Origin: a virus
Virus record (IMG/VR): IMGVR_UViG_3300032249_000447
Location: 1 to 30,851 of that record
Reading direction: 5' to 3' (one strand)
Length of the DNA stretch: 30,851 nt
The position numbers and the translations under genes were made by a program. Positions within the stretch are counted from its first letter, which is position 1. Each line of letters begins with the position of its first letter. This document shows positions 2,871-28,649 of the stretch, piece after piece. The notes beneath the pieces were generated by a model. It saw only the letters and a program-made list of their open reading frames with translations, made no database searches and was not told the DNA's origin.

Positions 2871-2876
2871 GGAAAG

Positions 2877-4844
2877 TTAGGCGTTGGTGGCTTTGCGGAA
2901 GGAAACGACAGCCATGCCATCGTTCTTCTGTTTGCCGCCGGGGCTGTGGAAATCGAAGCGTCCAGTGAGAGGCTTACCGAATTTTTTGATAGCCTGCGCG
3001 TCCTGCATGGTGCGGTCGTCCCAGTTGCGGATCACGGTGGACCCATCGGCGAGCGTGAGTTCCACAGGGTCGCCCTTACCGATCCCGGCGGCTTTGAATT
3101 TGCGCTCGATGTCGGGCGAGATGGCGAGGGAATTTTCGTCGAGGGTGTTGTTCCACGCGCCGATGCGGTTGCGGGAATTGGAGTCGGAATACGGATCGCC
3201 AGGGAAGTTGTAGTGTGTCACCTTACCTTCGGCTTTGGTGGACTGAGCCTTTTCTCGCATTTTTTGTTCACGCTCAAGCGATGGAGATGGAGGCGCGGCT
3301 GGGGCATCCACTCGATCCATCATGCGTGTTTGCCATCCAGAGCTTGGCAGAAACGAGGGCGGCGACTTCTGTTTGAACAACTCAAGGGCTTTACCCTTCA
3401 AGAGAGGCTCGATGAGGCTGTCTCGGTGTTGTTGGGCGTCCGCCGGAGTCTTGTCCTTGTTGGCCGGGTCGTCGAACCATTCGTCCATGCCTTGCATCAC
3501 CGAATAGACCTTGGCGTTGTATGTGTTGTTCTTGGACTGATCAACGATGGTCTTGCCGTCTTGGTCTAATCCGGTTTCTCCGAGGAGGCCACTATCGCCG
3601 ATGCGCTTGATGCCTTGGATGAAATCGGACCTGTAAACTTCGCGGGGGGCTTTTGGAGTTCCATCGAATGCTTTCTTCCAACCAGACTTCAACTCTTCAC
3701 TCAGTAGTTGAGCCTGCTCTTTGGGGAGGCGAGAAACGATCTCAGCGTTGAGTTCGTAGAATTTCGCGTCGTCCTTGTCAGCCCCATAATCAAATCCGGC
3801 GACCTTGGCCTTGAGATCACCTGCGATCTTTGGATCGAATGTGATATTTGAAGCTATTGCATTTTCAAGGCGCTTGTATTTCGACGGCTCAATCCCCATC
3901 CCTTTAGACTCCGTAGCAAGTTGCTCGGTGCTGGTGATGTCCTTGTTCTGGATTCTTTCAACGAGGGAATTCCAATTATCGGAATCCGTGGCGCGGATTT
4001 GGCGGTCTGCCTCGTAGAGGTGAATTTTGACTCGGCTGGGTTCAAGTTGGCCAAATTCTGTCACCTCGCCAGCCTTGGCTTTGGTGAGGATTTCCTTGGC
4101 GCGGCGAGGGTCGGTGAGGATTTCGGCAGCGATCTTCTCGCGCTGTTGCTCCTTGGCCTTGCGAAGGAAGTCATCCTGCAACATGGCATTTTTGAGTTTC
4201 CCTTCACTTTCGGAATATGTGCCGTCTTTGACGCCTTTGTTGATGACGGCGAATGCGCCTTCGATGTCTCCGTCTGCGATCTTCATCAAGGCGTTGGCTT
4301 CAAGGTCTTGCTGGTAGCCTTCGATGCGTTTCTTGTTGGCCTGCCCTTCGATTTGCACGCCGCTCATGGTGTTCCAACGGTCAAAAGCGGGCGAGAGCGA
4401 CTGGGCGGCGTTGTTGCTGATGCCGATCTCGCCGATGGCCTTCTTGGTTTCAGAGACATTGGCGAGCCACTTCTCCTGCCACTTGTCCACCGGCGTGTTC
4501 ATCTGGTCGTTCTGCTGCTTCTCAAATGCCGAGCGCATGAGAGTCTCGGCGCGGGCAAGGTCGGCGGTGTCTTTGGCCTTGGCCATCTTCTCGGAGTAGG
4601 CAAGTGCGACCTCGCCAATTTGGCCGATCTGGTAGGCGATCTTGCCCATCGCGGCGTCCTCCTTTGAGAAGGCGTCGAGCGCCAGCGTCTGATCCAGCAT
4701 CGACTTTGCGCCACGGGTTGCGATGGAGGAATCCACCATGGCGGCTCCGGTGAGCTTCGCGGCTTGCGGTGCGAGGATGCCGGTCGAGGGGCCGAGGGCT
4801 TGCGGGCCTGCGTTGGGAATGTCGGCGAGTCGGATGGTTGGCAT
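2877..4844 (-). CDS. Internal virion protein (gp15-like) with C-terminal RlpA/3D-like double-psi beta-barrel
   Basis: A 655-residue protein starting at ATG 4844, a few bases after the stop of the gp14-like gene. Residues 1 to about 530 are mostly helical and charged with coiled-coil character, as in ejection proteins that line the periplasmic conduit. The last 116 residues (about 540-655) look like a double-psi beta-barrel of the RlpA/3D/MltA type: a YSDSNS turn, an I-G-A-W-N-N-T-L segment, the conserved S-L-A-I-S-P-D, G-D-P-V-E-L-T-L, a W-D-D-R-T segment and T-G-R-F-D-F. Such domains bind or cleave peptidoglycan glycan strands, so the inferred role is local wall opening during DNA ejection. 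The T7 equivalent puts its transglycosylase in gp16, so the placement here differs. Catalysis is not proven. Confidence 0.8.
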   Translation of the reverse strand: MPTIRLADIPNAGPQALGPSTGILAPQAAKLTGAAMVDSSIATRGAKSMLDQTLALDAFSKEDAAMGKIAYQIGQIGEVALAYSEKMAKAKDTADLARAETLMRSAFEKQQNDQMNTPVDKWQEKWLANVSETKKAIGEIGISNNAAQSLSPAFDRWNTMSGVQIEGQANKKRIEGYQQDLEANALMKIADGDIEGAFAVINKGVKDGTYSESEGKLKNAMLQDDFLRKAKEQQREKIAAEILTDPRRAKEILTKAKAGEVTEFGQLEPSRVKIHLYEADRQIRATDSDNWNSLVERIQNKDITSTEQLATESKGMGIEPSKYKRLENAIASNITFDPKIAGDLKAKVAGFDYGADKDDAKFYELNAEIVSRLPKEQAQLLSEELKSGWKKAFDGTPKAPREVYRSDFIQGIKRIGDSGLLGETGLDQDGKTIVDQSKNNTYNAKVYSVMQGMDEWFDDPANKDKTPADAQQHRDSLIEPLLKGKALELFKQKSPPSFLPSSGWQTRMMDRVDAPAAPPSPSLEREQKMREKAQSTKAEGKVTHYNFPGDPYSDSNSRNRIGAWNNTLDENSLAISPDIERKFKAAGIGKGDPVELTLADGSTVIRNWDDRTMQDAQAIKKFGKPLTGRFDFHSPGGKQKNDGMAVVSFRKATNA

Positions 4845-5672: not shown

Positions 5673-6088
5673 TAGTGTCCCTCCTCCTTTGAAAGTGATG
5701 AAATTAGAAAAACTTGATTGTCAGATATTTTTTGAAACCCCTGCCGTTCCAGAATACGAGCAATTCCGGGAGCGGTAAATACAGCCATGGTGTGGTAGCC
5801 GAAGCCGCGAGCGATTTTTTGCAGGCAGGTCATGCAATGCCGGAAAGCCTCCAATGCTGTTTTCAACGGGAGTCGCGGCCTGCTCACTGCGTGGTCGGCC
5901 ATGCACATGCCGGATGAGTTGTCCATGCACAGGAAAAGGGCGCTCACAGGCTCGCCTTCCATTTCGCAAATGACGCCACACTTTGGGAGCATCGGCAGAG
6001 GGCGCGGGTGCTTCCCGTGGAAGTAGCACCACTCGCTGATCATGTCGTGGTCGGAATCGGTGAATTCTCGTAAAGTGATGTTATTCAT
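5672..6088 (-). CDS. GNAT-like protein of the ejection module
   Basis: A 138-residue protein starting at ATG 6088 and overlapping the end of the nozzle gene by 8 bases. The pattern resembles a small GNAT N-acetyltransferase fold: N-terminal I-T-L-R-E-F-T-D-S-D, a central strand with hydrophobic residues and Met, and a C-terminal I-A-R-I-L-E-R-Q-G-F-Q motif typical of the last GNAT helix and strand. The canonical acetyl-CoA loop (Q/R-x-x-G-x-G/A) is not clearly seen, although R-G-F-G-Y lies near the expected place. GNAT-like proteins occur at this position in many T7-like and related podoviruses, between the tail nozzle and internal virion proteins. The role may be structural rather than enzymatic. 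Confidence 0.7.
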   Translation of the reverse strand: MNNITLREFTDSDHDMISEWCYFHGKHPRPLPMLPKCGVICEMEGEPVSALFLCMDNSSGMCMADHAVSRPRLPLKTALEAFRHCMTCLQKIARGFGYHTMAVFTAPGIARILERQGFQKISDNQVFLISSLSKEEGH

Positions 6089-9014
6089 TACCGAAAGTAT
6101 CCCACACAGGTTGAAGGGCGATGACGGCCATTGGATAAGGTGCAGTCTGCCTCAGAGTGACATCTGCGTCGAGACCGAACGCACCGGCGAGGATCATTTT
6201 CTGGTCGCCGGTGGTGATGGTGTCGGCGAGGGCATACCAGTCGCCGTTGTTCGTGCGAACCTCCCCTCCCCGGCTCTTGTAAAGGCGGGCGATGATTTTG
6301 TGGATGCGCTTCTTGCGGCCTTGGGAGGAACCGTCTTCCAAGTCCATGTCGAGCTTCATAGGCGTAAGGGTCGATGTGTAGGGCAGGCCGACATAGCCTG
6401 CGGCTGCGGCGGGAACGGTGATCGCGCCGCTGGCGACCGTGCGGGTCACGGGGGCTTGGCCGTCTTGCATGACGGTGACGGTCTTGCCGTTGAAGCGGTC
6501 GAGGCCAGAGATCGTGCGGCCTGCTGCGCCGGCGTCAATTTTGGACCACCCGTCGAGGTAGCGCCATGAGTTCGCGGTTTGGTTGTCGAGGTGGGTTCTC
6601 CAGAGGAGCGGGAACCGCTCAATGGTGCGGTAGTCCTGCCCGGAGACGGTGCGCTTGACGACCATCCAGACTTCGTCCTCGGTTTGGTTGCCGTAGATGG
6701 TGGCCACGGACTCGACATCGGCATTGTCGGCGATGACATGCCGGTGCCAGCCGACGACTTTTTGATCGCGCTCGTAGGTCATCGCGATGAGGGTTCCATC
6801 GCCGCGAGCGCACCAGAGGACGGCATCCGGTTGCTGCTGGTAGGCGACCTCCACGATTTCGCCGCTGGTGATGTGTTCGGCGAGGAGGGTCAAATCCGGC
6901 GCGACCCAACCGTCCTTGTTGAGTTCGTAAACGAGTTCGCGCACCTTGCGTCCGTTGCGCTGGACGAAGAGGAGGACATCGTTGACCAGCGCGGCCCGCA
7001 TGTATTTGCTGCCGTAGCTCGACTGGCGGCGTGCCTGCACATTGGTGGCCGAGAGCGAGGCCGAGGAGTCAGCGCTGCCGATGGTCCACTCGTCGCCGGA
7101 TGTGCCGATGAGGAGTTGACTTTGCGAATACATCCAGTTGATGCGGTTGCCTTCCGAGGCGGCGAGGGTGAACTGGACCGCATCGCTGGCAGTCGTGCCG
7201 GTCTTGAAGTTCTCGAAATTGTCAATCTGACTGCACCATATCGTATTTGGCTGGGAGCTTGTGCCGCCGAAGCAGAGGCGCTGTTCGTGCATGGCGACTG
7301 CGCGAGGGTAGCCGCGAGTGGAGGAGAATGAGCTAAATGCCCAAAATTTGGTGTTGCGCTGGAGGCGCGGTCCCTCTCCGAGCCACTTGTCCACATTGAT
7401 CTGCCCCGATCCGACGATGGTGGCGATGCCGCCCGTTATTTTTGTATCGGTCTCTAAACGAGCCTTCCGAACAATTGACCCGCTGCCGGAATCATAATCC
7501 AGAATGCGGATTTTTAGACCGCAGCGTGTGGACTCCGTTCCGCTAGTTATGATATTGCGGTCTGCGGACACGGAGTATTCCCGCACAATTTCCATTTTTG
7601 TGAGGTTCTCTGGGTAGATGTCGAGGTAGCCGGTCTGGGTATTGCCGGTCAGAGCGTAAGTGTAGGTGTGAGTGCCGGTGACGGTGATGGTCGTTCCGTG
7701 CGTGGCGTAGTTGTTTGTCGAAATGCCGTCTCCCACACAAATGCGGTCTCCATCGTTCCACCCATGGAAGGGGTGGTAGACGCTCACTACCGTGCCGCTT
7801 CGCGTGGCGGTGGCCACGATGCGCCCAGCCGAGAAGACATCCGAGGGAACGCGCAGAATTTGAATGGTTGCCGTCCATGTGCCGGAAGTGCTAAAATCCC
7901 ACCCACCTTCCACGGCCAGAGTCGAGGAAACATTGTTGCCATTGATGAGTTGCTCGGCGTAAAAATTTGGCTTTTGCCACTTGAGTTCCACTTGCGAGCC
8001 AATGGTCGAGGACGGGAAGAGACCGCTCCCAGCACTGACCGAGTATTTACCCATTTCGTTGAGCGGAATCGGGAATTGCGACCATTTGCCAGCGGCTTGA
8101 TCCACGCCGAAGTTCGATCCAGCGCGGTGGGCGCTCATGGCGTAGTAATAGAACGACTGGTTGGCTTGGTTTTGGGCGCTCCAATTGGCTGCGGTGAATG
8201 TGGCATCGGTGTTTGCCAAGATGCACTCGTAGGCGATGGTGCCATTCCGCACAATGTCACCTACTGCGTAGGCGGTGGATGCGGCCCATGCGGGAGGTTT
8301 GACATAGTCGCCGAGGATGTAGTTTGTGCCAGCGACCCAAGTGTCCGGGTTCGGGTAGATGTTCACGACCGTCTCCGTGGTGTTCTGCTCTTGCAGCGGG
8401 GGGTAGTCGAAGACGACCGAGGAGAAAGTCCAGTTGTTGTCTGCGAGGCGCGAGAGTTTGTAGGGGGGGTAGTTCGCGTGAGCGAAATACATGATGTCGT
8501 TGATCTGGGCGAACTGGACTTCGCGCAGGTGGGTGGCTGTGGCGTAGGGAGTGGGAATCTCAAAGATCGTCTGAGCCACCCACCGGCCTGCATCGAGATC
8601 GGTGTCGAATGTGCCTGCGGTGTGGGCGGTTCTGCAATAGTAGGTGACGCTGGATTCTCGCACATAGTTGCCGACCGAGTAGATGCTGCCGCTCGTCCAT
8701 GCGGCAGGAGTGGCCACGGTCACGGGTAAGCCTGTCGCCCCGCTCCAGAAGCGCAGGTAGCCTACGCCCATTTCGAGGATGAACCGGGTGGTGGTGGAAA
8801 AATTAAAGCCGATCAACCGGGTTTGCGTTGTGGCCGACTTGGTGGCTCCGCGAAACTCTGTGCCTGGTCGCCGGATGACGCCGCCGTAGGGCAGGATTTG
8901 GAAGTTCTCCAGCGTGCGGCAGGCGCTGCGGTATTTCTCCAAGCTCGTCCGGGCGTCGATGAAGGGCGAGACTTCACCGGCGTTGAAACTTGGATAGAAA
9001 TCGAACTTCGGCAT
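6081..9014 (-). CDS. Tail nozzle / tail tubular protein B-like, with CBM5/12-like modules
   Basis: A 977-residue protein starting at ATG 9014, one base after the stop of the upstream gene. The N-terminus (F-N-A-G-E-V-S-P near residue 10, then an R-R-P-G-T-E-F motif near 48-54) is the hallmark of podovirus nozzle proteins related to T7 gp12. The central H-E-Q-R-L-C-F-G-G and W-C-S-Q-I-D-N-F segments are also typical, leading into a beta-propeller-like region. Three W/Y-rich CBM5/12-like stretches are present: residues 106-145, and a pair at 225-311 in which one module (253-279) seems inserted within another. They could bind sugars on the host surface or serve as docking sites. The gene follows the adaptor and fibre block, as expected for late tail genes. 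Confidence 0.85.
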   Translation of the reverse strand: MPKFDFYPSFNAGEVSPFIDARTSLEKYRSACRTLENFQILPYGGVIRRPGTEFRGATKSATTQTRLIGFNFSTTTRFILEMGVGYLRFWSGATGLPVTVATPAAWTSGSIYSVGNYVRESSVTYYCRTAHTAGTFDTDLDAGRWVAQTIFEIPTPYATATHLREVQFAQINDIMYFAHANYPPYKLSRLADNNWTFSSVVFDYPPLQEQNTTETVVNIYPNPDTWVAGTNYILGDYVKPPAWAASTAYAVGDIVRNGTIAYECILANTDATFTAANWSAQNQANQSFYYYAMSAHRAGSNFGVDQAAGKWSQFPIPLNEMGKYSVSAGSGLFPSSTIGSQVELKWQKPNFYAEQLINGNNVSSTLAVEGGWDFSTSGTWTATIQILRVPSDVFSAGRIVATATRSGTVVSVYHPFHGWNDGDRICVGDGISTNNYATHGTTITVTGTHTYTYALTGNTQTGYLDIYPENLTKMEIVREYSVSADRNIITSGTESTRCGLKIRILDYDSGSGSIVRKARLETDTKITGGIATIVGSGQINVDKWLGEGPRLQRNTKFWAFSSFSSTRGYPRAVAMHEQRLCFGGTSSQPNTIWCSQIDNFENFKTGTTASDAVQFTLAASEGNRINWMYSQSQLLIGTSGDEWTIGSADSSASLSATNVQARRQSSYGSKYMRAALVNDVLLFVQRNGRKVRELVYELNKDGWVAPDLTLLAEHITSGEIVEVAYQQQPDAVLWCARGDGTLIAMTYERDQKVVGWHRHVIADNADVESVATIYGNQTEDEVWMVVKRTVSGQDYRTIERFPLLWRTHLDNQTANSWRYLDGWSKIDAGAAGRTISGLDRFNGKTVTVMQDGQAPVTRTVASGAITVPAAAAGYVGLPYTSTLTPMKLDMDLEDGSSQGRKKRIHKIIARLYKSRGGEVRTNNGDWYALADTITTGDQKMILAGAFGLDADVTLRQTAPYPMAVIALQPVWDTFGNE

Positions 9015-9760: not shown

Positions 9761-10075
9761 TTAGATTTCTTCAGCTTGCGGTAAAAGAGGGAGGACGGCA
9801 TTCATGGGGAGGACTTCGACCAGAGGGAAAAGCTCGCTGGGGAGATGCGCGAATCCTTGCGCGTAGAGTCCGCCGGGGCCGATTTCGGTGAGGAGGTCCG
9901 CACGGAGCATTTTGCGGCCATCGACGAGATCGACGGGGATTGCGACATGGCGAGGGTTGCCATGTTCGCTTTGCACGGCGGCGAGTTGCGCGGCGAGTTC
10001 GGAGTTAAAAACAAGAGCAAATTCTTTTGCCGTCTCGTAGCTGATAGGTTGGTTTATGAGGTCGGCGAGGGTCAT
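9761..10075 (-). CDS. Hypothetical tail-region protein
   Basis: A 104-residue protein whose start ATGA overlaps the stop of the receptor-binding gene. It is predicted to be soluble, with an N-terminal helical half and a C-terminal half rich in Leu, Pro and Glu. I do not recognise the family. Small genes directly after a receptor-binding protein often encode a chaperone or fibre-associated factor, which is only a contextual guess here. Confidence 0.6.
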   Translation of the reverse strand: MTLADLINQPISYETAKEFALVFNSELAAQLAAVQSEHGNPRHVAIPVDLVDGRKMLRADLLTEIGPGGLYAQGFAHLPSELFPLVEVLPMNAVLPLLPQAEEI

Positions 10076-10872
10076 ACGATTGCTGTAGTGAGTGCGTTCA
10101 TAAGCGTTGTGACTCGTGTATCAAGGGCGGCGAGGTCCATTGCTTCGCCTACTGAGTAAAAGGCAATTCGACCCGCCGAATTGTTTTGTCCGACTCCATT
10201 TGCAAAAATACGAAGAACTTGATTAAGTGGAGTTTGCGAAGTTGATGAAGAAGTTGTGCTTGTTCTGTTTCCTCTGGAAACAACTTGAGTCGAGTTACTT
10301 CTACTTGTTCCAATTAAGCCTGCAAAGTTTGTCGATAAAGTAGGGCCAGAATTTGTGTTTAATCTGTGAGTAATTCGCTCTGAATCTGATATGAATAATT
10401 GCGATGTGCCGCTTATTCCCGTGCCGCCCATATAAACTCTGTTAGTAACCCCATAAGTTTTAGTGACATAAACTGAAATATGTTTAGAATTTTGAGGGTC
10501 AGAGTTATTGTTTCGGTTGGTAATTAAATCTTTGTTTGTCGCGTCACCGATTAGCCCTGTTTTTCGGTTGTAGTCACCCGCAACAAAACTGTTATTTGTG
10601 GGAGCTGCCCCTACAAGCGGGACTAAAGCGCCGGGAAGTGTTCTCGCTCCTGCCAGAATACAGGAGGCTTTGATGGCAGACCAGATGCCGTCCGATTTGC
10701 AACCGACGACAAAATTGTCAATAGCCACTGCAACGGCATTTTCAATTGGCTGGAGGTCGGCAGCTTCAACTGCTAACAAATAAGCCTCGGCGTCAGCATC
10801 GGAGGCAGTTGACCGCCCGGATTTAGTCGGAATGCGTAAAGGAGAGAGTTGGCCGTAGAGGGGCGAAATCAT
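10072..10872 (-). CDS. Candidate receptor-binding tail protein
   Basis: A 266-residue protein. The start is set at ATG 10872, which overlaps the previous stop as ATGA; an upstream extension in the same frame would overlap the neighbouring gene. The N-terminal about 70 residues are helical; then come S-D-G-I-W-S-A-I-K-A, A-G-A-R-T-L-P-G-A-L-V-P-L-V-G and D-Y-N-R-K-T-G-L motifs that recur in phage tail and fibre proteins with a concanavalin/LamG-like domain. The middle (about residues 90-230) is Asn/Ser/Thr-rich. The DNA there is visibly more AT-rich than the neighbouring genes, a common sign of exchange in host-recognition modules. The C-terminus is a short helix. Receptor binding is inferred from position and composition. 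Confidence 0.7.
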   Translation of the reverse strand: MISPLYGQLSPLRIPTKSGRSTASDADAEAYLLAVEAADLQPIENAVAVAIDNFVVGCKSDGIWSAIKASCILAGARTLPGALVPLVGAAPTNNSFVAGDYNRKTGLIGDATNKDLITNRNNNSDPQNSKHISVYVTKTYGVTNRVYMGGTGISGTSQLFISDSERITHRLNTNSGPTLSTNFAGLIGTSRSNSTQVVSRGNRTSTTSSSTSQTPLNQVLRIFANGVGQNNSAGRIAFYSVGEAMDLAALDTRVTTLMNALTTAIV

Positions 10873-11237
10873 GCGAAGGTCAGGTTTTGCTTGTTTGACC
10901 ACGCGCCGGTGGCGCTGGATTCGGTGCTGGTGGTGCCTGCGGCGTTGAAAATGGTTTGGACGATCTCCCATCCTTCGGCGTCATAGACGCTGCCGGAATT
11001 TCCAAAATCTGCGTAGAGGAGGTAGCCCAAATAGGTGGTGTTGCCATCGAGGTCGAACATCCAAATGCGGTCGGGGGCTTCCTTTGCGCCTGCGATTTTA
11101 TAGGTCTCTCCAGTGGCAGGATTCCGAGTAAAAATCTTGCGGTTTGTGTGGTTTATAACCACTTCTCCGAAAACCAAATCAGTAGGAATGCTCCCATCGA
11201 CCGTGCTGTTTCTCAAAATTATTTTCGGATTTGCCAT
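10869..11237 (-). CDS. Short fibre protein with phage-fibre N-terminal motif
   Basis: A 122-residue protein with start chosen at ATG 11237. Its first residues (K-I-I-L-R-N-S, then G-E-V-V-I-N-H-T-N-R-K-I-F) match the pattern of the trimeric fibre N-terminal segment that also begins the next upstream gene (K-I-K-R-G ... G-E-L-A-I-D-T-L-N-K-S-L-F). The rest has beta-strand character with aromatic residues. No Shine-Dalgarno is obvious. It ends by overlapping the receptor-binding gene. It probably belongs to the adsorption apparatus. Confidence 0.65.
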   Translation of the reverse strand: MANPKIILRNSTVDGSIPTDLVFGEVVINHTNRKIFTRNPATGETYKIAGAKEAPDRIWMFDLDGNTTYLGYLLYADFGNSGSVYDAEGWEIVQTIFNAAGTTSTESSATGAWSNKQNLTFA

Positions 11238-12278: not shown

Positions 12279-12518
12279 TTAAAAGGCTCCGCAGTCGATG
12301 GTTTCGAGCATGAGTCGGTAGGTGTTGGCGGCGTTGTCCCAAAGCCATTGCACATGGGTGTCCTGCGCGTGGTAGATGCGGGCCTCCTTGCCGGGCTGCG
12401 GGAAGTCGGCGGCGGTGGGGTAGATGACGAGCTGCTTAACGCTGTCCTCTGGCAGGACAATCGTGAACTGGGAGAGGTCCAGTTGCTGGGTGATGTTGGT
12501 CTCGGTGATCGTCGTCAT
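12279..12518 (-). CDS. Small tail-region protein
   Basis: A 79-residue protein whose start overlaps the stop of the adaptor-fibre gene as ATGA. It contains a strand-rich segment (Q-F-T-I-V-L-P-E-D-S-V-K-Q-L-V-I-Y) and W-L-W near the middle. I do not recognise a family. Its position between the adaptor-fibre fusion and the coiled-coil fibre suggests a small structural or assembly protein. Confidence 0.65.
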   Translation of the reverse strand: MTTITETNITQQLDLSQFTIVLPEDSVKQLVIYPTAADFPQPGKEARIYHAQDTHVQWLWDNAANTYRLMLETIDCGAF

Positions 12519-13993
12519 GCGTAGGTGGCGGTCTCCCGGTTAGTCCACGCGACATTGGTCGCCTTGGCGGTTGCAGTGACGGCTCCGGCGGCAGAGAGCG
12601 CGGAGCGGGTGATCGACCATTTGGCCACGACTGCGGGTGAGCCGGTGGCTGGGATGTCGGAATTGAGCAGTAGTCCGTAGTAGGAAAATGTGCCTGCGGT
12701 ATTGATGGCGAAGGCGTGGATGGAGTTGTCCGGGTCGCGTTGCGTAGTGGCTGAGTAGAGGCCGAGGGCAACGACAACGATTTTTGCGCCGTTTGGAATG
12801 GCTTGGGTGAAAGTGATCGTGCCGCTGCCTTGGTTGACGAGGTAGTCGGCGGTAGGTTCCTGTGTCACCCCGTTGATCGCCACGATGACATGGTTCGGAT
12901 CGCTGGAGCGAAGTCCATTGACCGGGAAGGTGCGGAGCGTGCCGTTGCCGGTGAGCGTGGTTTTGGCTGAGTCGAGGAGACCGGCTTGAGGCAGGCCGAA
13001 GTTGAGGACGGCAGTGTTGCCTGTGCCGGTGTTCGTGACGAAGGGTTGGACATTGCCAGAGACCGGGGAAACATTTCCGACTTGGACGAGGAGCGAAGGG
13101 TAGCTGACTCCGCCACCGGGTCCACTCGCCTTGGCTTGCGAGGCATCGATGCCATCGCCGCCGTTGCGGGAGGAGACGAGTTTCGAGGACATCCACGCTG
13201 GCTTGATCCGACCTTTGCGCTCGGTGGAGTCCCGGCGCATGGCAGGGCTTTTGCCGAGGATGTCGGTTTCCTTAGCAAGGAGCGCGGCCTTGGCGGCATC
13301 GCCGGTCAGCGGGACGGCCAGCTTGGCCGCGAGGCTGGCCGTGAGGAGGTCGATGAAAAGGGAATCGAAGAGGGTGACTTCGGTGACTTTGCGGACATAC
13401 TCCAGCGTGATCGCCGTGCCGAGCCAGACATCCCAGTCGGTGGTCCAGCCAGATGTCACGCCTGGTTGCTTGGCAGACCCAGTGACCATGCATCGGTAGA
13501 CCGCCGTGGCGCTGGTGACGACATTCCCGGCCTCGTAGTCGCGGCCTGCCACCCAATCGAAAGCGCCGGAATCGGAGTTGGAGAGGACAAAGTTGCCAGA
13601 GACCTCCCAAGCGGCATCGCCGGTCGAGTAATCTTGGTCGTTTACCCGGAAGACGCGCAGGCAGTCGGACGGGATCGCGTAGCGGTAAGCCCACTTGTAT
13701 TCCGGGCGGGGGACGGTCTCAACCACCGTGGTGGACTTCATCGCCCAAGTCCATGATCCGGCGAGGAGGAGCGCATCGCGCACCTGTGGGTAGAGGGACT
13801 TGGCGAGGAGCATCGCCTGCGAGGAGGGTCCGAACTGCTCGGCAGTGCCTACGCGCAGGATCGCTTGGCGGCAAAGTTCGTCCTCAGTGAGCGTGGACGA
13901 TGGGCGCGAGGAGGCGCGGGCCTCGACCGCATTTTTCAATGCGGGCTTGCCTGCGAGGAACTGGAGTTCCTTGAATAACTCCTCGCTTTTCAT
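12515..13993 (-). CDS. Tail adaptor (TTPA-like) domain fused to fibre-like module
   Basis: A 492-residue protein starting at ATG 13993, three bases after the preceding stop. It begins with K-S-E-E-L-F-K-E-L-Q-F-L, nearly the same start as the upstream gene. A tail-adaptor (gp11/TTPA-like) domain covers about residues 36-250 (C-R-Q-A-I-L-R-V-G-T, R-Y-A-I-P, V-F-R-V-N, A-W-E-V-S-G). A W/Y-rich CBM5/12-like insert at about 145-190 separates its strands. From about 290 the sequence changes to fibre-type modules: a collar-like repeat ending in L-N-F-G-L-P-Q-A-G, then a phage fibre domain with V-I-V-A-I-N-G-V-T-Q and I-P-N-G-A-K-I-V-V-V. In T7 the fibre docks on the gp11/gp12 interface; here the adaptor and a fibre element are covalently joined. 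Confidence 0.8.
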   Translation of the reverse strand: MKSEELFKELQFLAGKPALKNAVEARASSRPSSTLTEDELCRQAILRVGTAEQFGPSSQAMLLAKSLYPQVRDALLLAGSWTWAMKSTTVVETVPRPEYKWAYRYAIPSDCLRVFRVNDQDYSTGDAAWEVSGNFVLSNSDSGAFDWVAGRDYEAGNVVTSATAVYRCMVTGSAKQPGVTSGWTTDWDVWLGTAITLEYVRKVTEVTLFDSLFIDLLTASLAAKLAVPLTGDAAKAALLAKETDILGKSPAMRRDSTERKGRIKPAWMSSKLVSSRNGGDGIDASQAKASGPGGGVSYPSLLVQVGNVSPVSGNVQPFVTNTGTGNTAVLNFGLPQAGLLDSAKTTLTGNGTLRTFPVNGLRSSDPNHVIVAINGVTQEPTADYLVNQGSGTITFTQAIPNGAKIVVVALGLYSATTQRDPDNSIHAFAINTAGTFSYYGLLLNSDIPATGSPAVVAKWSITRSALSAAGAVTATAKATNVAWTNRETATYA

Positions 13994-13996
13994 GCG

Positions 13997-15655
13997 TTAT
14001 TGGCGAACGACCTGCGCGGGTTGGGATTCCATGAGTTGCGAGAGCTTCATGGCGAGTGTCACGGTGAGCATGTTTACAAAGACCGCCGGGAACTTGCTGG
14101 CATCAGTGACGATGGCGGTCGTCTCGATCTGAACCGTTGGCGTGACATCCGTGTGGAGGTAACCGCCGACGATCTCCCATTTGCCGAAGTTTTCATCCTC
14201 GTCCACGCCATTGACCCGAAGCACCTTGATGGTCGTGATCGGCAGCAGGTAGCGTTTGGCGTAACCGAAGGACGGGGCCACGGGATCGGCGGAAAGGGTT
14301 GTCTGGACCCGGGCGAACTGCCAGTCGAAGTCAGCAAGGAGTTCGTTACGGGTCTGGTCGAAGAGGGATGTCGCGATGGACATCGGCTCTCCGTAGGGTT
14401 TGAAGACATCGGCGCTTCCCACCCGGAGGATGGCTTGGCGGCAGATTTCCGAGACCGTGTTGGCCGAGGTGGTCGTGCGGGGTTTCGCAGACTTCTCGAT
14501 CTGGTTCTTGACTGAAGGGCGCTGCATGGTCTCTGCGGCCACTTGGACCATCGCGGTCACAATGTTTCCATCGGTCGTGAGCGGGAGGGCAATCTTGGCG
14601 GCGAGGCGGCAAATGAGCGCCTCGATGAACGGAGCCGGGAACAATGCCACATCGGTGACGAGTGAAGTGTAGTCCACGATGATGGGCGCTCCGATGTCGG
14701 TGTGCAGGAATCCACCGACAATTTCCCATTGGCCGAAGTTCTCGGTGGTGTCGATGTTGTTGACCCGAATGATTTGGATAAAATCCGTTGGCAGCGTGTA
14801 GCGTTTTGTGTGGCCCGAAGTCGGGTTGGTCGCGTTGACAACAAGCGATACCTGTTTTTTGGCAAACGCCCACGGGACATCTGAAAGCAGTTCCTCAAGC
14901 GTGTGGTCGTAGAAGCTATTGGCAAAGACCATCGGCTGGCTCTTGAGGGATTCCAAGGAACCGAGGCGCATGATCGCCTGTTTGCAAATCTGGGTGCGGG
15001 TCGTGATGTTGTTGCTTGTGCTGGCATCGGCGACCGAAACGATCTCGCGCTGGAGAGCGGGGCGCTGGATGATGAAATCAAATTCCTTCGCTGCGGCCAT
15101 TGCTTGGTCACCGGCTCCGAGCGCCATCGCGAGCTTGTAGGCAAGGCGAGCAACAACGAGTTCGATGAAGATCGCAGGATAGGAAGTATCACTAACTGGT
15201 GCGGCGATGTAATCGATGGAGATCGGCGTTACCAGATTAGTATGGACAAAGCTGCCAACCACCTCCCATGTGCCGAAGTTCTCTGAGGTATCAATGCCAT
15301 TGATGCGAAGCACCTTGATGGTCCCTGTTGGGACGGGGTAGCGGAAATCGTATCCGCTAACCGGAGCCGTGATATCCTTTGCGACATTGCCTGCCTGCTG
15401 GCGGGCAAAGCGCCAATCGTATTCCGAAAGAATCTCGTTGATGGTCTGGTTGTAGAACTTGGCCGCAAAAACAAACGGTTGCCCGTTTTGCTTGAATGCA
15501 TCGGCGCTGCCGACACGCATGACCGCTTGCCGGATGATCTCGCTGGCGTTTGCGGTGAGTGTGCCAGAGTAGTTAGCGACTGCCTCGACTGCCTCAAGAA
15601 GGGCAGGCTTGGACATGAGGAATTGGAGTTCTTTGAAGAGTTCTTCGGATTTCAT
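13997..15655 (-). CDS. Tail adaptor protein with three tandem TTPA-like domains
   Basis: A 552-residue protein; the start ATG 15655 overlaps the preceding stop as ATGA. Three homologous domains of about 155 residues follow a short K-S-E-E-L-F-K-E-L leader. Each opens with an I-C-R/K-Q-A-I/V-M/L-R-V/L-G-S signature (about residues 40, 208 and 395) and then has W-x-F-A-R/K, G-Y/H-x-K/R-R-Y, I-K/Q-V/I-L/I-R-V/I-N, F-G-x-W-E-I/V-V-G-x-F/Y-x-H-T and F-P-A-x-F. These match the tail tubular protein A (T7 gp11) fold, normally one domain per chain in a dodecameric ring under the portal. The tandem triplication is unusual. It lies directly between a two-domain and a one-domain paralogue. Confidence 0.85.
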   Translation of the reverse strand: MKSEELFKELQFLMSKPALLEAVEAVANYSGTLTANASEIIRQAVMRVGSADAFKQNGQPFVFAAKFYNQTINEILSEYDWRFARQQAGNVAKDITAPVSGYDFRYPVPTGTIKVLRINGIDTSENFGTWEVVGSFVHTNLVTPISIDYIAAPVSDTSYPAIFIELVVARLAYKLAMALGAGDQAMAAAKEFDFIIQRPALQREIVSVADASTSNNITTRTQICKQAIMRLGSLESLKSQPMVFANSFYDHTLEELLSDVPWAFAKKQVSLVVNATNPTSGHTKRYTLPTDFIQIIRVNNIDTTENFGQWEIVGGFLHTDIGAPIIVDYTSLVTDVALFPAPFIEALICRLAAKIALPLTTDGNIVTAMVQVAAETMQRPSVKNQIEKSAKPRTTTSANTVSEICRQAILRVGSADVFKPYGEPMSIATSLFDQTRNELLADFDWQFARVQTTLSADPVAPSFGYAKRYLLPITTIKVLRVNGVDEDENFGKWEIVGGYLHTDVTPTVQIETTAIVTDASKFPAVFVNMLTVTLAMKLSQLMESQPAQVVRQ

Positions 15656-16665
15656 TTGGATTGTTCGGATGTTGGGAATTCCACGATGGAGGCGAGTTTG
15701 AGAGCGAGAGTGGCGGTGAGGATTTCGACAAAGATGGGCGGAAACTTGGTCACATCGGTGACCGTGGCGGTGTGATCGAGAATGATCGGGGTCGCGAAGT
15801 TGGTGTGGATGAAGCTGCCGACAACTTCCCACTGCGCGTTGTTTTCTGAGTCGTCGATATTGTTGACCCGGATGATTTGCTTGCAGGCTACGGGGATCGC
15901 GTAGCGGAACGAGTAGCCGGTCGTGGGAGCGGCTGCGTCTTTGGCGATGGAGACTTGGGCGCGGGCGAACGACCATTGGAAGTCGGCCAGCAGGCTATCG
16001 CGAACCGACTCGTAAAGAGACTGGGCAATGACCATGGGTTCGCCATGCGGCTTGAACAGATCGGCAGAACCGACTCGCAAAATAGCCCTGCGGCAAATCT
16101 CGGCAACGCTGACAGGCACGGCGGATGTGCGAGCCGGGGCATAGGCTTCGGTGGCTTGGAAAAATGCAGGCTTCTGCATGGTGGCCGAGTAGAGTTGGAC
16201 GCACTGCGTGAACAAATCCTTGGAGCCGGTAAGAGGCATCGCGAGGACGGCTGCGAGCTTCATGGAGAGCGCCTCGATGAAGATGGCCGGGAACAGGGTG
16301 GTGGTCGTGACGAGCGCGATGTAGTCGAGCGAGGGAGTGCCTGTTAGGTTTGTGTGCAGGTTGGCTCCGAGGATTTCCCAAGTGCCAAAGTTTTCGCTCG
16401 CATCGATGTCTTCAAGCCGGATCGCCCGGATGAAATCGGCAGGCAAAGCATACCTTGTCGAGTAGCCGGTAATCGGTGCAGCACCGCTGGTGAGGTTGAC
16501 TTGCTTGCGGCAGAATTGCCAATTGAACTCGGCTTGGAGTTCCTCGACCGTCTGCGAGTAGAACAGAGTGCAATACTGCGCCTGCGCCGTTGAATCGGTC
16601 AGCGCGGTGATGCGGGAATCACCGAGTCGGGCGAGAGCGAGGTTGCAGATTTGGATGTCTGTCAT
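15652..16665 (-). CDS. Tail adaptor protein with two tandem TTPA-like domains
   Basis: A 337-residue protein starting at ATG 16665, the first gene after the terminator that follows the capsid gene. Two adaptor domains are visible: about residues 1-165 (I-C-N-L-A-L-A-R-L-G-D, F-N-W-Q-F-C-R, R-Y-A-L-P, F-G-T-W-E-I-L-G) and about 185-330 (I-C-R-R-A-I-L-R-V-G-S, F-Q-W-S-F-A-R, R-Y-A-I-P, W-E-V-V-G-S-F-I-H-T-N). The first domain looks most like a canonical gp4/TTPA adaptor start (M-T-D-I-Q-I-C-N-L-A-L-A-R-L-G). Together with the next two genes it makes an array of six adaptor domains. It joins the portal to the nozzle in the tail. Confidence 0.85.
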   Translation of the reverse strand: MTDIQICNLALARLGDSRITALTDSTAQAQYCTLFYSQTVEELQAEFNWQFCRKQVNLTSGAAPITGYSTRYALPADFIRAIRLEDIDASENFGTWEILGANLHTNLTGTPSLDYIALVTTTTLFPAIFIEALSMKLAAVLAMPLTGSKDLFTQCVQLYSATMQKPAFFQATEAYAPARTSAVPVSVAEICRRAILRVGSADLFKPHGEPMVIAQSLYESVRDSLLADFQWSFARAQVSIAKDAAAPTTGYSFRYAIPVACKQIIRVNNIDDSENNAQWEVVGSFIHTNFATPIILDHTATVTDVTKFPPIFVEILTATLALKLASIVEFPTSEQSK

Positions 16666-16739: not shown

Positions 16740-17648
16740 TTAGAGGACTTCGTCGCAGGCGATCTCGACGACTTTCTTCTCTTCCATACGCACGGCAGCA
16801 AGGCTGGCCACGGAGCGGATTTGAAGGGAGTGCGAGAGGTCGGTGCGGATGTCCATGTGGGTCTTGAGGCCACGCTCGGCGAGGATGATGCCGCTCTTCA
16901 CATAGGCGAAGCAGGAGCGGATATCGGTCGCCAGCGGAAGCTGCTGGCTTCGGCGGAATTTGAAACCCATGAAGGTGTTCAAAGTGCCGTCCACAAGGGC
17001 GCGGACCGAGTTGTAGTCTGCCGAGGTTGCCTCGACCGTGCGGAGCAGGTCTTGGAGTTGCTTGGCGGACACAACCATGATGCGCTCCTCTTCCTCGTCA
17101 ACCTCGTTGGAGTCGAAGAGGAACTTCGCTGCGCGGAGCTTGGCGATGGTGAGGCCAGAGTTGGCGACTGCGCCGGACTCGACATAGTTGGCTGCGATCT
17201 TCTGGCCTGCGGGCAGGACGGTGGCCGTTGTGCCGGTCGTGCCGGTGAAGGCTGTGCCGCCGAGGGCATCGATGATGATCTTGTCGCAAGTGCGAGCGTA
17301 GGCTGCGGCATGGGACTGAATGATCGGGCTAGTGGGTAGAACGACTTCGCCGAGAAGCTGCTCATCGAACTCGTCAACGAGTTTGGCGCAGTCGTATTGA
17401 AGTGGGCGAATCCAACGCTTGGCCATCGCTTGGTTGCTGATCCGAGTGTCGCCAGAGCGATCCGTGATCTGAGCCATCGAGGTAGCGTCGAGTTGATTGT
17501 AGGATTTCTCCTTCCCTTCGATGGAATCGAGGGTGACATATTCTTTCAGCTTAGAATTCTTCTGCTGAACGAGGTGTTTCCAGTTGTTATCGAACTGGGT
17601 CGTGAAGTGATTGGGGATGTTCGTCAGAACTCCGTTTAGATCTGCCAT
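16740..17648 (-). CDS. Major capsid protein
   Basis: A 302-residue protein with a good ribosome-binding site (AAAGGAG at 17654-17660) before ATG 17648. It is HK97-fold-sized for a podovirus capsid and has a pattern of Phage_capsid_2-type proteins: an R-S-G-D-T segment near residue 66, an acidic D-E-F-D segment after K-L-V near 92-97, and a R-T-C-D-K-I-I-I-D-A-L-G-G segment in the middle. A short Gly/Thr-rich loop (about 132-140) follows. It lies between the scaffold/tRNA region and the adaptor genes, the expected place. It has a structured leader and its own terminator, which fits strong expression. Confidence 0.85.
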   Translation of the reverse strand: MADLNGVLTNIPNHFTTQFDNNWKHLVQQKNSKLKEYVTLDSIEGKEKSYNQLDATSMAQITDRSGDTRISNQAMAKRWIRPLQYDCAKLVDEFDEQLLGEVVLPTSPIIQSHAAAYARTCDKIIIDALGGTAFTGTTGTTATVLPAGQKIAANYVESGAVANSGLTIAKLRAAKFLFDSNEVDEEEERIMVVSAKQLQDLLRTVEATSADYNSVRALVDGTLNTFMGFKFRRSQQLPLATDIRSCFAYVKSGIILAERGLKTHMDIRTDLSHSLQIRSVASLAAVRMEEKKVVEIACDEVL

Positions 17649-18999: not shown

Positions 19000-19289
19000 T
19001 TTTTGACCTTGCGTTTGGGAGTCTCAATGTCGCCGTCCGCGATGACCGGCCTGCGGAGCATGGCTTCGATGTGGAGGATCACGCCTCGTTGACCGTCTCG
19101 CAGCGCGGCGACCACGGGGTTGAAATCATAACCAGGCAGGAAGACCTGCGAGTCGGTAGCGAACTGGTGCTTGAGGTCGGCGATGACCGCTTGGCCGTCC
19201 TTGCCTGCAAACAAGCGATGGTAGGCGTTGGTGACCTTCTGGCGCTCGCGCTCACGCCGAAGGGCAGCGGCTTTGTCTTCGGGAGCCAT
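18996..19289 (-). CDS. Bbp19-like phage protein
   Basis: A 97-residue protein; the start at ATG 19289 overlaps the portal stop as TGATG. A Y-H-R-L-F-A-G-K-D-G-Q-A-V-I-A-D-L core is typical of the Bbp19 family, named for Bordetella phage BPP-1, followed by an A-L-R-D-G-Q-R-G-V-I-L-H-I helix. The function of the family is not established; it is usually adjacent to the portal gene, as here. The Lys/Arg-rich C-terminus may contact DNA or the capsid. The longer upstream reading frame overlaps the portal gene and is not used. Confidence 0.8.
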   Translation of the reverse strand: MAPEDKAAALRRERERQKVTNAYHRLFAGKDGQAVIADLKHQFATDSQVFLPGYDFNPVVAALRDGQRGVILHIEAMLRRPVIADGDIETPKRKVKK

Positions 19290-20959
19290 CACGCTTGTCC
19301 CATCATGCCGGGGAGCATCCCGGCGAGTGCGGAGTCCTGCTTCACGCTGCCCGCCTTGCCAAGGGCGCTTGCGGCCTGCTCCATCTGCTGCGCCTGCATG
19401 GCTTGCTGTTGAGCTTGGGCGCGGGCGGCTCGTTGTTGCGCCACCATTTCCTCCTCCATGAGCCACCGGGCCGGGAGACCATCGTTGCGGGCCATGTCGC
19501 GGCAGATTTCATCGAAGTCGAAATTGTCAAGCATGTCGGGTTTGATCTGCACATAGGGCAGGAGCATCTCGCTGGTGCGAATAAATGCGGCGTTTTCGAG
19601 ACTTTTAATCGCGAGGGCGATTCGGCTGTTGTAGGCGACATCCGGCTCGGGGATGTAACCGACCATCGTGAGTTGTTGGGGTGGGGGAGGGAACTTGCCA
19701 GCGCGGGCGAGGATCGCAAAGACCCGGCGAAGGAGCGGGTTGAATAGCTCCGTGGTGAGGCGAGCAAAGGTCGGGGAAAATTGGATGAGCTTCTCACTCG
19801 CTCGCTCGGCGACTTCGCGGGCGGTCATCTGTTTTTGCAACTGCGCGAACATTTGGAACAAGTCCACATGGAAGGCTTCGTTGATCGCCTTGCGTTTCTG
19901 CTCGGCCCGCTCGACGCCGATGTCGTAGCGTCCGCCGGTTCCCCATTCCTTCGGGGTTGCGTTGGGGTTGTTCGGATCGAAGTAGGTCACGCCACCGGCG
20001 CGGAGATCGATGTCGCCATCAAACCCGGCTGGGATGAGGATGCGAGGGAACGCATGAATCTCGGCGAGGGAGTCGAGTTGCTTTTCAAGAAAGTTGAGTT
20101 GCTTGCATTCCGGCAGCGCGGTCCACGATGGCGAGTAGCCGTAGCACTCCGAGTTTTTCCACTTGAGGTAGCGGGTGACGAAAAATGGTTGCTCATCGAA
20201 GCCGCTGGACAAAAAGACATGCTTGCTCGCCTTGTCCACATACACGCTGGCATAGGGTTTGTTCTCGGCGTCTCGCTTGCCTTGTTCAATCTCGCCCGGG
20301 CCGCGAGGGGCGATGAGATGGACGCAGGCAAACTTGCGGTTGGAGTTGGGCTTCTCCAGTTCCTTCTTCATCGAGTCGGTGAGGTTCTCGACTCCGAACT
20401 TGAGCGCGGCCTGCCGTGCGGTCATCTCATACTCGCGGGAGAGTGTATCGACATAGCCCTCGTCATCCTCGGAGATCGCGAACGATCCGAGATCGAGCTT
20501 GGTGAAGTTGAGGGAATTGTTCTTCCCGCCTTCAACCAAGATCGCTGCCGTGCCGAACGCGCCCCGGTCGAGATAGAGTTCGTGAATCTCCGTGTAAAAG
20601 TTGGACCGGCTGAGTTCGGCCTGCATCACCTCGGTGCAACGCTTGAACCACTGCTCGATCTCGTCCTCGCTCTCCATCGCCTTCGGAGGTTCCAGACTGA
20701 ACCACCGGCTTTCGAGCGGCGTCATCCATGAGAGTTGACCATTGGCCAGAATCATGTTTGCCCGCACCGCAGTTGCGTCGAAGAGTTGCGCCTCGTCTTC
20801 GGTGGACGGCGAGGTCGTCTGCGTAAACATCGTCGCCTTCCGGGGCATCACATACTTCGCGATGTCCTCCCAGAGAGATTCCCATGTCGCCCGCTGATGC
20901 ACTAGTTCCGCATGGCGCTGCAAAACCTTGTCGGCGAGTTCGGGATTTTTGCCGGTCAT
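19289..20959 (-). CDS. Portal / head-to-tail connecting protein
   Basis: A 556-residue protein of the podovirus head-tail connector family. The N-terminus has W-E-S-L-W-E-D-I-A-K-Y-V-M-P-R-K, and a D-A-T-A-V-R-A segment and W-F-S-L-E-P follow within the first 100 residues. The middle portion has the W-x-A-L-P-E-C-K-Q-L-N (about 280) and the N-E-A-F-H-V-D-L-F-Q-M-F pattern of this family. The C-terminus is Gln/Ala-rich. ATG 20959 is only one base after the 16-bp element, with no Shine-Dalgarno. It is the DNA-entry channel of the capsid. Confidence 0.9.
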   Translation of the reverse strand: MTGKNPELADKVLQRHAELVHQRATWESLWEDIAKYVMPRKATMFTQTTSPSTEDEAQLFDATAVRANMILANGQLSWMTPLESRWFSLEPPKAMESEDEIEQWFKRCTEVMQAELSRSNFYTEIHELYLDRGAFGTAAILVEGGKNNSLNFTKLDLGSFAISEDDEGYVDTLSREYEMTARQAALKFGVENLTDSMKKELEKPNSNRKFACVHLIAPRGPGEIEQGKRDAENKPYASVYVDKASKHVFLSSGFDEQPFFVTRYLKWKNSECYGYSPSWTALPECKQLNFLEKQLDSLAEIHAFPRILIPAGFDGDIDLRAGGVTYFDPNNPNATPKEWGTGGRYDIGVERAEQKRKAINEAFHVDLFQMFAQLQKQMTAREVAERASEKLIQFSPTFARLTTELFNPLLRRVFAILARAGKFPPPPQQLTMVGYIPEPDVAYNSRIALAIKSLENAAFIRTSEMLLPYVQIKPDMLDNFDFDEICRDMARNDGLPARWLMEEEMVAQQRAARAQAQQQAMQAQQMEQAASALGKAGSVKQDSALAGMLPGMMGQA

Positions 20960-24209: not shown

Positions 24210-24390
24210 TTCGTTTTCGTTTGGCCTCAATTGCCCGGCGCTCTGGCGTTGCCACCCAGAACCGGTCGCGGGCTTCTTTGACCTGTCTTGAGAGCAAAAG
24301 CCACCACCGGTCCTCGCGGTCGGAGCCGCAGAATTGAGTTCCTGCGGCCCCTTGGGCGACTTTTTTTCGATTAGAACGAGATTTCGTCAT
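24199..24390 (-). CDS. Small basic hypothetical protein
   Basis: A 63-residue protein starting at ATG 24390, inside the last codons of the SSB-like gene (20-base overlap). It has a basic N-terminus (K-S-R-S-N-R-K-K), a W-W-L-L-L segment and a basic helix R-R-A-I-E-A-K-R-K-R. It may bind nucleic acid. No family recognised. Confidence 0.6.
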   Translation of the reverse strand: MTKSRSNRKKVAQGAAGTQFCGSDREDRWWLLLSRQVKEARDRFWVATPERRAIEAKRKRNDW

Positions 24391-24865
24391 CGGTCGGGGT
24401 TGCGTCAAAGGCGCGGGCCGCAAGGATGCGCTCGTTGAGAGTCGTGAGCCGGTCAGCCGGGAGCGGCTGCGAGGAGGTCATGGGGTTGAGCCATCGCACC
24501 TTCAGCCGCACCTTGCCGTCCTCTCCTTCCTCGGCCTCGATGGTGATCCGGCAGAGCTTGCCGACCCAAGGCGCTTTTCCAGCGTTGAGCGTTGGGATGT
24601 CCCACTCTCGGCCAAAAGCCTCGTCGAGCGTCTTCGCCGTGCGCTCTGCGGCCTTCTCCGAGAGCCAGCCCTGCCAGACGATTTCCCGTCCGTGCTGGTC
24701 GCTGGCCGGATCGTCGATGAGGAGCGGGATGCGGATGAAATGCGAGCCGGTCTTGCTGGTTCCAAGCCATCCGTTGCCGGGGGCTTTTACTTTCGCCGTG
24801 TATTTGCCTTCGGCGGTCACATAGCGGTTCTGTTGTTTGTCTGCGAGGTCGTGTGTTGTTGTCAT
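24371..24865 (-). CDS. SSB-like single-stranded DNA-binding protein
   Basis: A 164-residue protein with a beta-rich body that could form an OB fold (K-Y-T-A-K-V-K-A-P-G-N, then H-F-I-R-I-P-L-L-I-D, V-G-K-L-C-R-I-T-I-E-A). It ends in T-D-D-E-I-S-F, which resembles the acidic SSB tail (D-D-x-I-P-F) that recruits partner proteins. ATG 24865 overlaps the previous stop as ATGA. It is grouped with replication, recombination and resolvase genes. It is not a canonical SSB sequence, so the assignment is by context and tail. Confidence 0.6.
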   Translation of the reverse strand: MTTTHDLADKQQNRYVTAEGKYTAKVKAPGNGWLGTSKTGSHFIRIPLLIDDPASDQHGREIVWQGWLSEKAAERTAKTLDEAFGREWDIPTLNAGKAPWVGKLCRITIEAEEGEDGKVRLKVRWLNPMTSSQPLPADRLTTLNERILAARAFDATPTDDEISF

Positions 24866-25104
24866 GTTGTTTGGTTGTTGTTGTTCGGGAGGTTGGTATC
24901 AGTCAAAACTAAGCTTTTGTCCCTTATGCTTCCGCATTTTGTGCAAACGGCATTTTCATCTCCAAAAATCCATTTGCATTGATGCGTGCCTCCGACTTTG
25001 GCTTGGAATCTGCCGCGCTTTTGTTCGCCAACAGCAGCTAAGGATTGAGCGGTAATTGCCCCGGCTCCTACATTGTGGAGCCTTTGAAGACTTGTTGTTG
25101 TCAT
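24862..25104 (-). CDS. Small zinc-ribbon protein
   Basis: An 80-residue protein starting at ATG 25104, overlapping the loader stop as ATGA. A C-K-W-I-F-G ... C-T-K-C-G set suggests a zinc ribbon in the second half. The C-terminal residues (L-V-L-T-D-T-N) are encoded by a copy of the 16-bp element, followed by an Asn-rich end. It lies between the helicase loader and the SSB-like gene and may act with them. Confidence 0.65.
   Translation of the reverse strand: MTTTSLQRLHNVGAGAITAQSLAAVGEQKRGRFQAKVGGTHQCKWIFGDENAVCTKCGSIRDKSLVLTDTNLPNNNNQTT
24895..24910 (-). repeat. 16-bp dispersed element upstream of SSB-like gene
   Basis: Perfect AGTTTTGACTGATACC on the minus strand, inside the end of the zinc-ribbon gene and 29 bases before the SSB-like start. 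The leader that follows is an A/C-rich run (AACAACAACAACC). Confidence 0.8.
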
Positions 25105-25796
25105 GTGTTGATGATGTTGGTGAACTCCGATAACCGCCGGAGGATCGGCTCGCCCCTGTCGGACGAGAGCATTTTTCTGAGGTCGCCCTTGGCGGCGTTG
25201 GCCGTCCAAATGATGGGCAGTTCGTGAGAGGATCGGTGTTCCAACAGGTCGAAGAGTTCCAGTTCCGCCCGCTCGGTCATCTTGTTTTTGCCGAGGTCAT
25301 CGAGGAGGAGAACCTTCGTCCGGCGGCAGCGAGTGAGTGTGTCTTCGGCCATAGCTTTAGCCTGGTTGTTGTCGTGCCACTGGTCGGCGCAGGCTTTTGC
25401 AAATCCCGTGGAGGTGATGCCAAAGACTCGCAAGTTCTCAAAATGCAACCGCTTGAGCAGTATCCACGCCGCTCGCGTCTTGCCGCATCCCGCAGGACCG
25501 ACGAGACCGAGGCCGACCGGATTAAAGCGCCATGCCTCGCATTCGCGCAGGAAGGCCGCAGGAATGCGTTTTGGGTCGCTTTCGCGGTATAGTGGTGGAC
25601 AGAGGGTGTTGAACGCCTCCTGCCGCCTCTCCTGCTCCTCTGCGGCCTGCTCCTGTTTAAGCCTTTCGATCCGTTGGAGATCACACTCGTCGCAGAGGAT
25701 TTTGACATTTGGGAAAATCCGAAGCAGATCGTCCCCGGGGACCGGAACCGAGTTGTAGCACGACTCAGTCGCGCAGCATTGGACCGTGGCTACCAT
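25101..25796 (-). CDS. DnaC-like helicase loader ATPase
   Basis: A 231-residue AAA+ protein. The start at ATG 25796 just overlaps the end of the replication initiator-like gene; longer in-frame starts lie deep in that gene. The N-terminus has two Cys pairs (C-C-A-T-E-S-C and C-D-E-C, about 8-40), likely a zinc-binding unit. Walker A G-P-A-G-C-G-K-T is at about 115, Walker B V-L-L-L-D-D-L-G near 180, and a sensor-1-like I-W-T-A-N-A follows. C-terminal R-R-L-S-E-F could be the arginine finger region. It should load the replicative helicase at the origin. The helicase itself is not in the window and may come from the host. Confidence 0.8.
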   Translation of the reverse strand: MVATVQCCATESCYNSVPVPGDDLLRIFPNVKILCDECDLQRIERLKQEQAAEEQERRQEAFNTLCPPLYRESDPKRIPAAFLRECEAWRFNPVGLGLVGPAGCGKTRAAWILLKRLHFENLRVFGITSTGFAKACADQWHDNNQAKAMAEDTLTRCRRTKVLLLDDLGKNKMTERAELELFDLLEHRSSHELPIIWTANAAKGDLRKMLSSDRGEPILRRLSEFTNIINT

Positions 25797-28635: not shown

Positions 28636-28649
28636 GTTGTTATTACTGC

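Follow-up and report, generated by a model that had tools for sequence, protein, structure and literature searches.

The tail barrel of phage phi-crAss001 consists of five stacked dodecameric rings, which are formed by the paralogous ring proteins R1-R5 and together span about 23 nm, and in the lowest of these rings residues 15-26 contact the nozzle (PMC10172136). In phage T7, the alpha1-alpha2 loop of gp11 contacts the nozzle in two alternating conformations bridging 12-fold to 6-fold symmetry, and the final helix serves as an embracing helix around the portal stem (PMC6702177). By analogy, residues 15-26 of phi-crAss001 are taken to be the same alpha1-alpha2 loop. No description of tandem or fused adaptor domains was found in a search that covered mainly openly accessible papers.

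The window analysed here is the whole of a 30,851-base IMG/VR virus record (IMGVR_UViG_3300032249_000447), which comes from an uncultured short-tailed phage. On its minus strand, the order of genes is terminase, portal (PF12236), major capsid protein (PF19821), three adaptor genes, fibre-like genes and nozzle. The three adaptor genes carry six adaptor units, called D1 to D6, and probably encode a tail barrel of several rings, one ring for each adaptor domain, stacked from portal to nozzle. The features on which the analysis draws are as follows.

19289..20959, minus strand: portal (PF12236), a Pfam match and the expected partner of D6
16740..17648, minus strand: major capsid protein (PF19821), a Pfam match directly upstream of the adaptor array
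15652..16665, minus strand: P0001, 337 aa, holding D1 and D2 without the last helix of D2
16114..16665, minus strand: unit D1, the first unit in all complete relatives and putatively the nozzle-proximal ring
16570..16620, minus strand: alpha1-alpha2 loop of D1, DSRITALTDSTAQAQYC, which matches the loop of single-domain adaptors and in T7 gp11 contacts the nozzle (PMC6702177)
15655..16113, minus strand: core of unit D2 without its last helix
15652..15655, minus strand: junction 1, an ATGA stop/start overlap within unit 2, from the junction comparison
13997..15655, minus strand: P0002, 552 aa, holding the last helix of D2, then D3, D4 and D5 without its last helix
15554..15655, minus strand: start of P0002, corresponding to the embracing helix of D2 together with a linker
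15005..15553, minus strand: unit D3, also covered by the P0002 model
14462..15004, minus strand: unit D4, where the match to the Carin-1 connector 8ck1_E lies
14000..14461, minus strand: core of unit D5 without its last helix
13994..13999, minus strand: junction 2, TAA CGC between P0002 and P0003, one stop codon with the frame unchanged
12515..13993, minus strand: P0003, 492 aa, holding the last helix of D5, then D6 and a fibre-like extension
13892..13993, minus strand: start of P0003, corresponding to the embracing helix of D5 together with a linker
13184..13891, minus strand: unit D6, the last unit in all complete relatives and putatively the portal-proximal ring
13412..13582, minus strand: insert of about 57 aa within the fibre dock, the beta part of D6, with a weak CBM_5_12-like match (E 0.0018, below the Pfam cut-off)
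12518..13183, minus strand: fibre-like C-terminal extension of P0003, with weak matches to phrog_2710 and phrog_18673 (tail fibre)
6081..9014, minus strand: tail nozzle, 977 aa, matching the Carin-1 nozzle 8ck1_A (E 1e-73) and phrog_376, the expected partner of D1

The three minus-strand open reading frames were confirmed at 15652-16665, 13997-15655 and 12515-13993. The six units, of about 184 aa each, are spread over these three coupled genes with unit-to-unit start spacings of 181-188 aa. Comparison of the array with itself, a check that the original prediction had proposed, gave pairwise identities of 27.5-52.4%, and a self-search of the contig recovered the other copies at E values between 1e-28 and 3e-69, which puts the repetition well beyond chance. 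PHROG family 394 (tail protein, 190 aa) matched P0001 at E 3e-72 in two stretches, P0002 at 3e-73 in three and P0003 at 2e-28 in one. The six tandem repeats that had been predicted over three genes are thus real, with the correction that units 2 and 5 lack their last helix within their own gene. Of the motifs said to be shared by each copy, R-Y-x-x-P and W-E-x-x-G occur in all six units, whereas the opening motif is degenerate (ICNLALARLG in D1, IIRQAVMRVG in D3, LCRQAILRVG in D6), and so is W-x-F-A-R (WQFCRK in D1, WAFAKK in D4, WTWAMK in D6). The fusion of the last copy to a fibre-like module was borne out by the weak tail fibre matches of P0003.

The nearest solved relative is the connector of phage Carin-1 (8ck1_E), which P0002 matches by sequence at E 3.4e-11 and which a profile search hit at E 1.9e-15. 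A model of P0002 matched the same chain with a Foldseek E value of 2.5e-9, and VIA Z scores were 16.7 for 8ck1_E, 14.7 for LME-1 orf17, about 11 for T7 gp11 and KP32 TTPA, and 7-8 for the barrel ring proteins of phi-crAss001 (7qog/7qoi/7qoj); the Foldseek and VIA structure matches include 8ck1, 9efk, 5mu4 and 6r21. Each unit of the model shows, in order, a helix bundle, a beta fibre dock and a last, embracing helix. In the AlphaFold2 model of P0002 the domains fold, but their placement on one another carries no confidence (pTM 0.40; linkers with pLDDT below 50). The P0003 model is poor (pLDDT 32.5), and D6 was therefore placed in the family by sequence only. The identification of the units as T7 gp11/TTPA-type adaptor domains, as originally proposed, is supported by sequence for all of them and, for the domains of P0002, also by the predicted fold. 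One domain per chain is the usual architecture of TTPA/gp11-type adaptors, though no feature of their fold; it is broken here, with two, three and one per chain and with split units.

If the units formed a stack, its two ends should differ. The test was fixed before scoring: a single-domain adaptor must contact both portal and nozzle; in a mixed ring every copy would meet both partners, and a stack would leave such contacts to its two end copies, with one partner each. The resemblance of the loop had already been spotted by eye before the test was fixed, and the role of the loop at the T7 nozzle was learned afterwards. A reference profile was derived from 15 single-domain adaptors and scored region by region, and unit classes were taken from a tree of 120 units, in which each class forms its own clade. 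The alpha1-alpha2 loop of D1 scored +21.4 bits (16.2 to 23.6), close to the held-out single-domain adaptors (average 20.5, 9.9 to 27.5), whereas all other classes reached at most 3.2 without overlap with D1; the loop is retained solely in D1. The last helix scored highest in D6 (18.9, versus 16.3 in single-domain adaptors), and that of D1 and D4 was positive too. In the tail after the last helix, D6 was least unlike the single-domain adaptors, a weak signal that 0-2.5% of shuffles equalled. Members specialised for the nozzle end and for the portal end thus appear to be present, more weakly on the D6 side. With the loop in D1 only and the best last helix in D6, the order nozzle-D1-...-D6-portal is suggested.

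A tree was also built from which the loop, last-helix and tail columns had been removed (about 126 columns, single-domain adaptors as outgroup, FastTree local supports). In this masked tree the first branch is D6 (support 0.92 for the remaining units), and D1 groups within the others, beside D3 and D4, at moderate support (0.81 and 0.70). As D1 is nested and does not form an outgroup, one ancestral loss is not a ready explanation of a loop found in D1 only, and a single loss in the common ancestor of D2-D6 is not favoured by these columns; nor can the pattern be put down simply to D1 having arisen before the other copies.

An unlikely alternative is that only a single domain, D6 or D1, makes up the true adaptor ring and that the others hang from it as flexible appendages, perhaps outside the neck as a collar that anchors fibres or binds the host. 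The linkers between domains are predicted to be flexible, D6 bears the fibre-like extension, and some middle units carry inserts, all of which would suit such a collar. Appendages would not need partner-facing features at opposite ends of the chain, however, and all classes keep the full adaptor signature, while P0001, P0002 and P0003 are all under purifying selection (dN/dS 0.04-0.30).

To follow the array among relatives, about 200 loci, many of them overlapping on one contig, were read with a unit profile and the class profiles. The number of adaptor units per relative was 2, 3, 4, 5, 6 or 7 in a fixed order. The arrangements were as follows, a slash marking a gene break.

Two units: D1-D6, in a single gene
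Three units: D1-D5/D6
Four units: D1-D4-D5/D6 and D1-Dx-D5/D6
Five units: D1-Dx-D4-D5/D6
Six units: D1-D2/D3-D4-D5/D6, the commonest arrangement and that of the window
Seven units: D1-Dx-D2/D3-D4-D5/D6, with D6 cut by the contig end in the sole contig that reaches D6

In all complete arrays D1 is first and D6 last, and gene breaks fall solely after D5 or after D2, the sister class of D5. Among the single-domain lineages surveyed (Baldr-like, BcepC6B-like and GenBank phages), 112 of 112 loci carry just one domain. The portal is 97.3-98.3% identical to that of the window in two-unit phages (L164; L170 over 414 aa), 97.5-98.4% in the four-unit phages L064 and L066, 97.5% in the five-unit L052, 99.3% in the six-unit L042 and about 80% in the seven-unit phage. 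With portals about 97-98% identical to that of the window in phages of two, four and five units, array length varies while the portal interface stays constant. Nozzle identity varies more (60-89%) and does not track the number of units.

These counts bear on the arrangement given in the original prediction, in which two each of the two-, three- and one-domain chains would supply the twelve domains of a single hetero-oligomeric ring. The portal and the known adaptors are 12-fold, (2+3+1) x 2 equals 12, and neighbours in a chain could sit side by side. Relatives with totals of five (portal 97.5% identical) and seven (about 80%) stand against it, as 5 and 7 do not divide 12 and one twelve-domain ring is thus not supported. 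Furthermore, a mixed ring would offer only the two loops of D1 to a six-fold nozzle, the best-scoring last helix lies in D6, and a closed ring would give no ground for an order that always starts with D1 and finishes with D6. The proposal did not hold up and is now considered improbable. For the two-unit relatives, one ring of six two-domain chains is possible.

Several further observations were made on relatives of the array. In one group of loci (L061, L065-L075, L078, L079 and L082), D4 exceeds that of the window by about 90 aa, owing to an insert inside the unit. The extension after D6 is variable, P0003 ranging from 438 to 969 aa among relatives (491-492 in most); it measures 220-700 aa and is missing in several two-unit relatives (L117-L119 and L121). 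This extension is likely a host-range hotspot. A scan of bacterial genomes with P0002 identified one Verrucomicrobia MAG contig, with a portal 81% identical. Adaptor relatives were found in 32 of 388 Verrucomicrobiota genomes, and those read were nearly all single-domain. The MAG contig and these genomes make Verrucomicrobiota the candidate host phylum. On one Verrucomicrobiota contig (L337, G334:C129:36500-39500), a 350-aa protein adjoining a nozzle-like open reading frame has a divergent, apparently helical adaptor repeat at aa 9-149, followed by a second adaptor domain at about 155-330, and by its sequence is possibly an independent two-unit tandem. A candidate on a 46.6-kb viral contig (L320, about 2212-3300) was rejected as a second tandem, being a single-domain adaptor with an insert of about 100 aa in the beta (fibre-dock) part.

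Both gene breaks in the window lie inside a unit, at the turn preceding its last ("embracing") helix. In unit 2, P0001 stops once the fourth helix is complete, as does P0002 in unit 5, so that in both cases the last helix opens the next protein. The last helices of units 2 and 5 at the start of the next gene are MKSEELFKELQFLMSKPAL and MKSEELFKELQFLAGKPAL, and the opening of the next protein at both breaks reads MKSEELFKELQFL(M/A)(S/G)KPAL. In the P0002 model the break site corresponds to the short turn leading from the helix after the beta domain (161-179 in D3) to the final one (182-196 in D3). At the same two sites, the junctions of relatives are an ATGA overlap (-4), -1, TAA directly followed by ATG (0), TAA-CGC-ATG (+3) and +5. 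The junction ATG is always at the same residue, with variable upstream tails and a conserved downstream helix. As the frame relation varies among relatives, frameshifting or read-through is not a general mechanism, and the simplest reading of these junction sequences would be coupled translation of separate genes. That the three frames make up a single gene encoding about 1,380 aa, either expressed through programmed frameshifting or read-through of stop codons or broken up by a sequencing error, is very improbable and was rejected in the junction comparison: the breaks do cut a domain and junction 2 is in frame with a single stop codon, but offsets of -4, -1, 0, +3 and +5 put relatives in differing frames with the ATG at a constant residue, variable upstream tails before a conserved downstream start fit separate coupled genes, and the same breaks in dozens of contigs exclude sequencing error.

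For the stacked barrel, we infer 12-fold rings, their stacking and polarity, helix pairing across the gene breaks, a fibre collar and the lengths given below; of these, the 12-fold rings, the helix pairing and the fibre collar, along with the downward assembly described below, are drawn by analogy from T7 and phi-crAss001. Each unit would form its own 12-fold ring, in the order nozzle-D1-D2-D3-D4-D5-D6-portal. The last helix of each ring would embrace the ring above and then pass through a short flexible linker into the domain of that ring, and because the embracing helix runs on into the next domain, neighbouring rings would be covalently tied. At the gene breaks, the embracing helix would be carried by the upper chain, and its pairing with the lower ring would be non-covalent. 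The barrel would be assembled downward from the portal. With its fibre-like extension and its fibre-dock insert, D6 would likely be the fibre collar. Gain or loss of middle domains would change the number of rings. At the roughly 4.6 nm per ring seen in phi-crAss001, two units would give about 9 nm, six about 28 nm and seven about 32 nm, a range of about 9-32 nm across two to seven units. The balance of the evidence leans slightly towards a wider proposal, that the length of the tail barrel is set by how many domains are fused and shifts in steps when phages near-identical at the portal recombine. In this proposal each break assigns a ring-joining helix to the upper ring, and the barrel would grow from the portal downward in covalently linked segments.

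Elsewhere in the window, the nozzle carries a CBM_5_12 carbohydrate-binding module at aa 242-282 (E 2.8e-9), and judging from sequence, both this module and the weakly CBM_5_12-like insert of D6 may contact host glycans. Between the fibre-like genes and the nozzle, positions 10072-10971 encode a 299-aa protein of phrog_17104, a phage family of unknown function (E 3e-75). A replication block at 24371-28686 comprises SSB, a DnaC-like loader, a replication initiator, an exonuclease and a RecT-like annealing protein; the last two could aid recombination of the array.

If the stacked barrel is correct, these phages would amount to a natural series of podovirus tail lengths graded by copy number, with 2, 4, 5 or 6 units beside 97-98% identical portals. 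The lengthening of a short tail, the match of its length to the host envelope and the assembly of 12-fold stacks could then be tested. The phrog_394 label "tail protein" hides the domain count, and a model of a podovirus with one adaptor ring would thus be unsafe when taken from annotation.

Among known systems, phrog_9239 and a 741-aa protein of Vibrio phage H1 resemble P0003 in combining an adaptor domain with a long extension; the Vibrio phage H1 protein has one adaptor domain only in the 656 aa examined. The connector gp37 of Cobetia phage Carin-1 (8ck1_E) is the closest solved adaptor by sequence and fold, but has one domain per chain and a single adaptor gene, and the Carin-1 nozzle gp36 (8ck1_A) is a clear homologue of the window nozzle. 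T7 gp11 and KP32 TTPA share the fold, the embracing last helix and the position of the alpha1-alpha2 loop, whereas they are single domains that contact portal and nozzle within one chain. With phi-crAss001, the likeness extends to several paralogous adaptor-fold units per podovirus genome, to some relatives with fewer ring genes and, in the proposed stack, to a special loop in the ring nearest the nozzle and fibres docked on the portal side. The multi-ring barrel is already known from phi-crAss001 and the adaptor fold from T7; here, most likely, the number of rings varies between close relatives. In phi-crAss001 the stacking is solved and each ring protein is one chain, whereas in the window group the stacking is proposed, up to four domains share a chain, the breaks fall inside domains, and the units are 27-52% identical and number 2 to 7 per relative.
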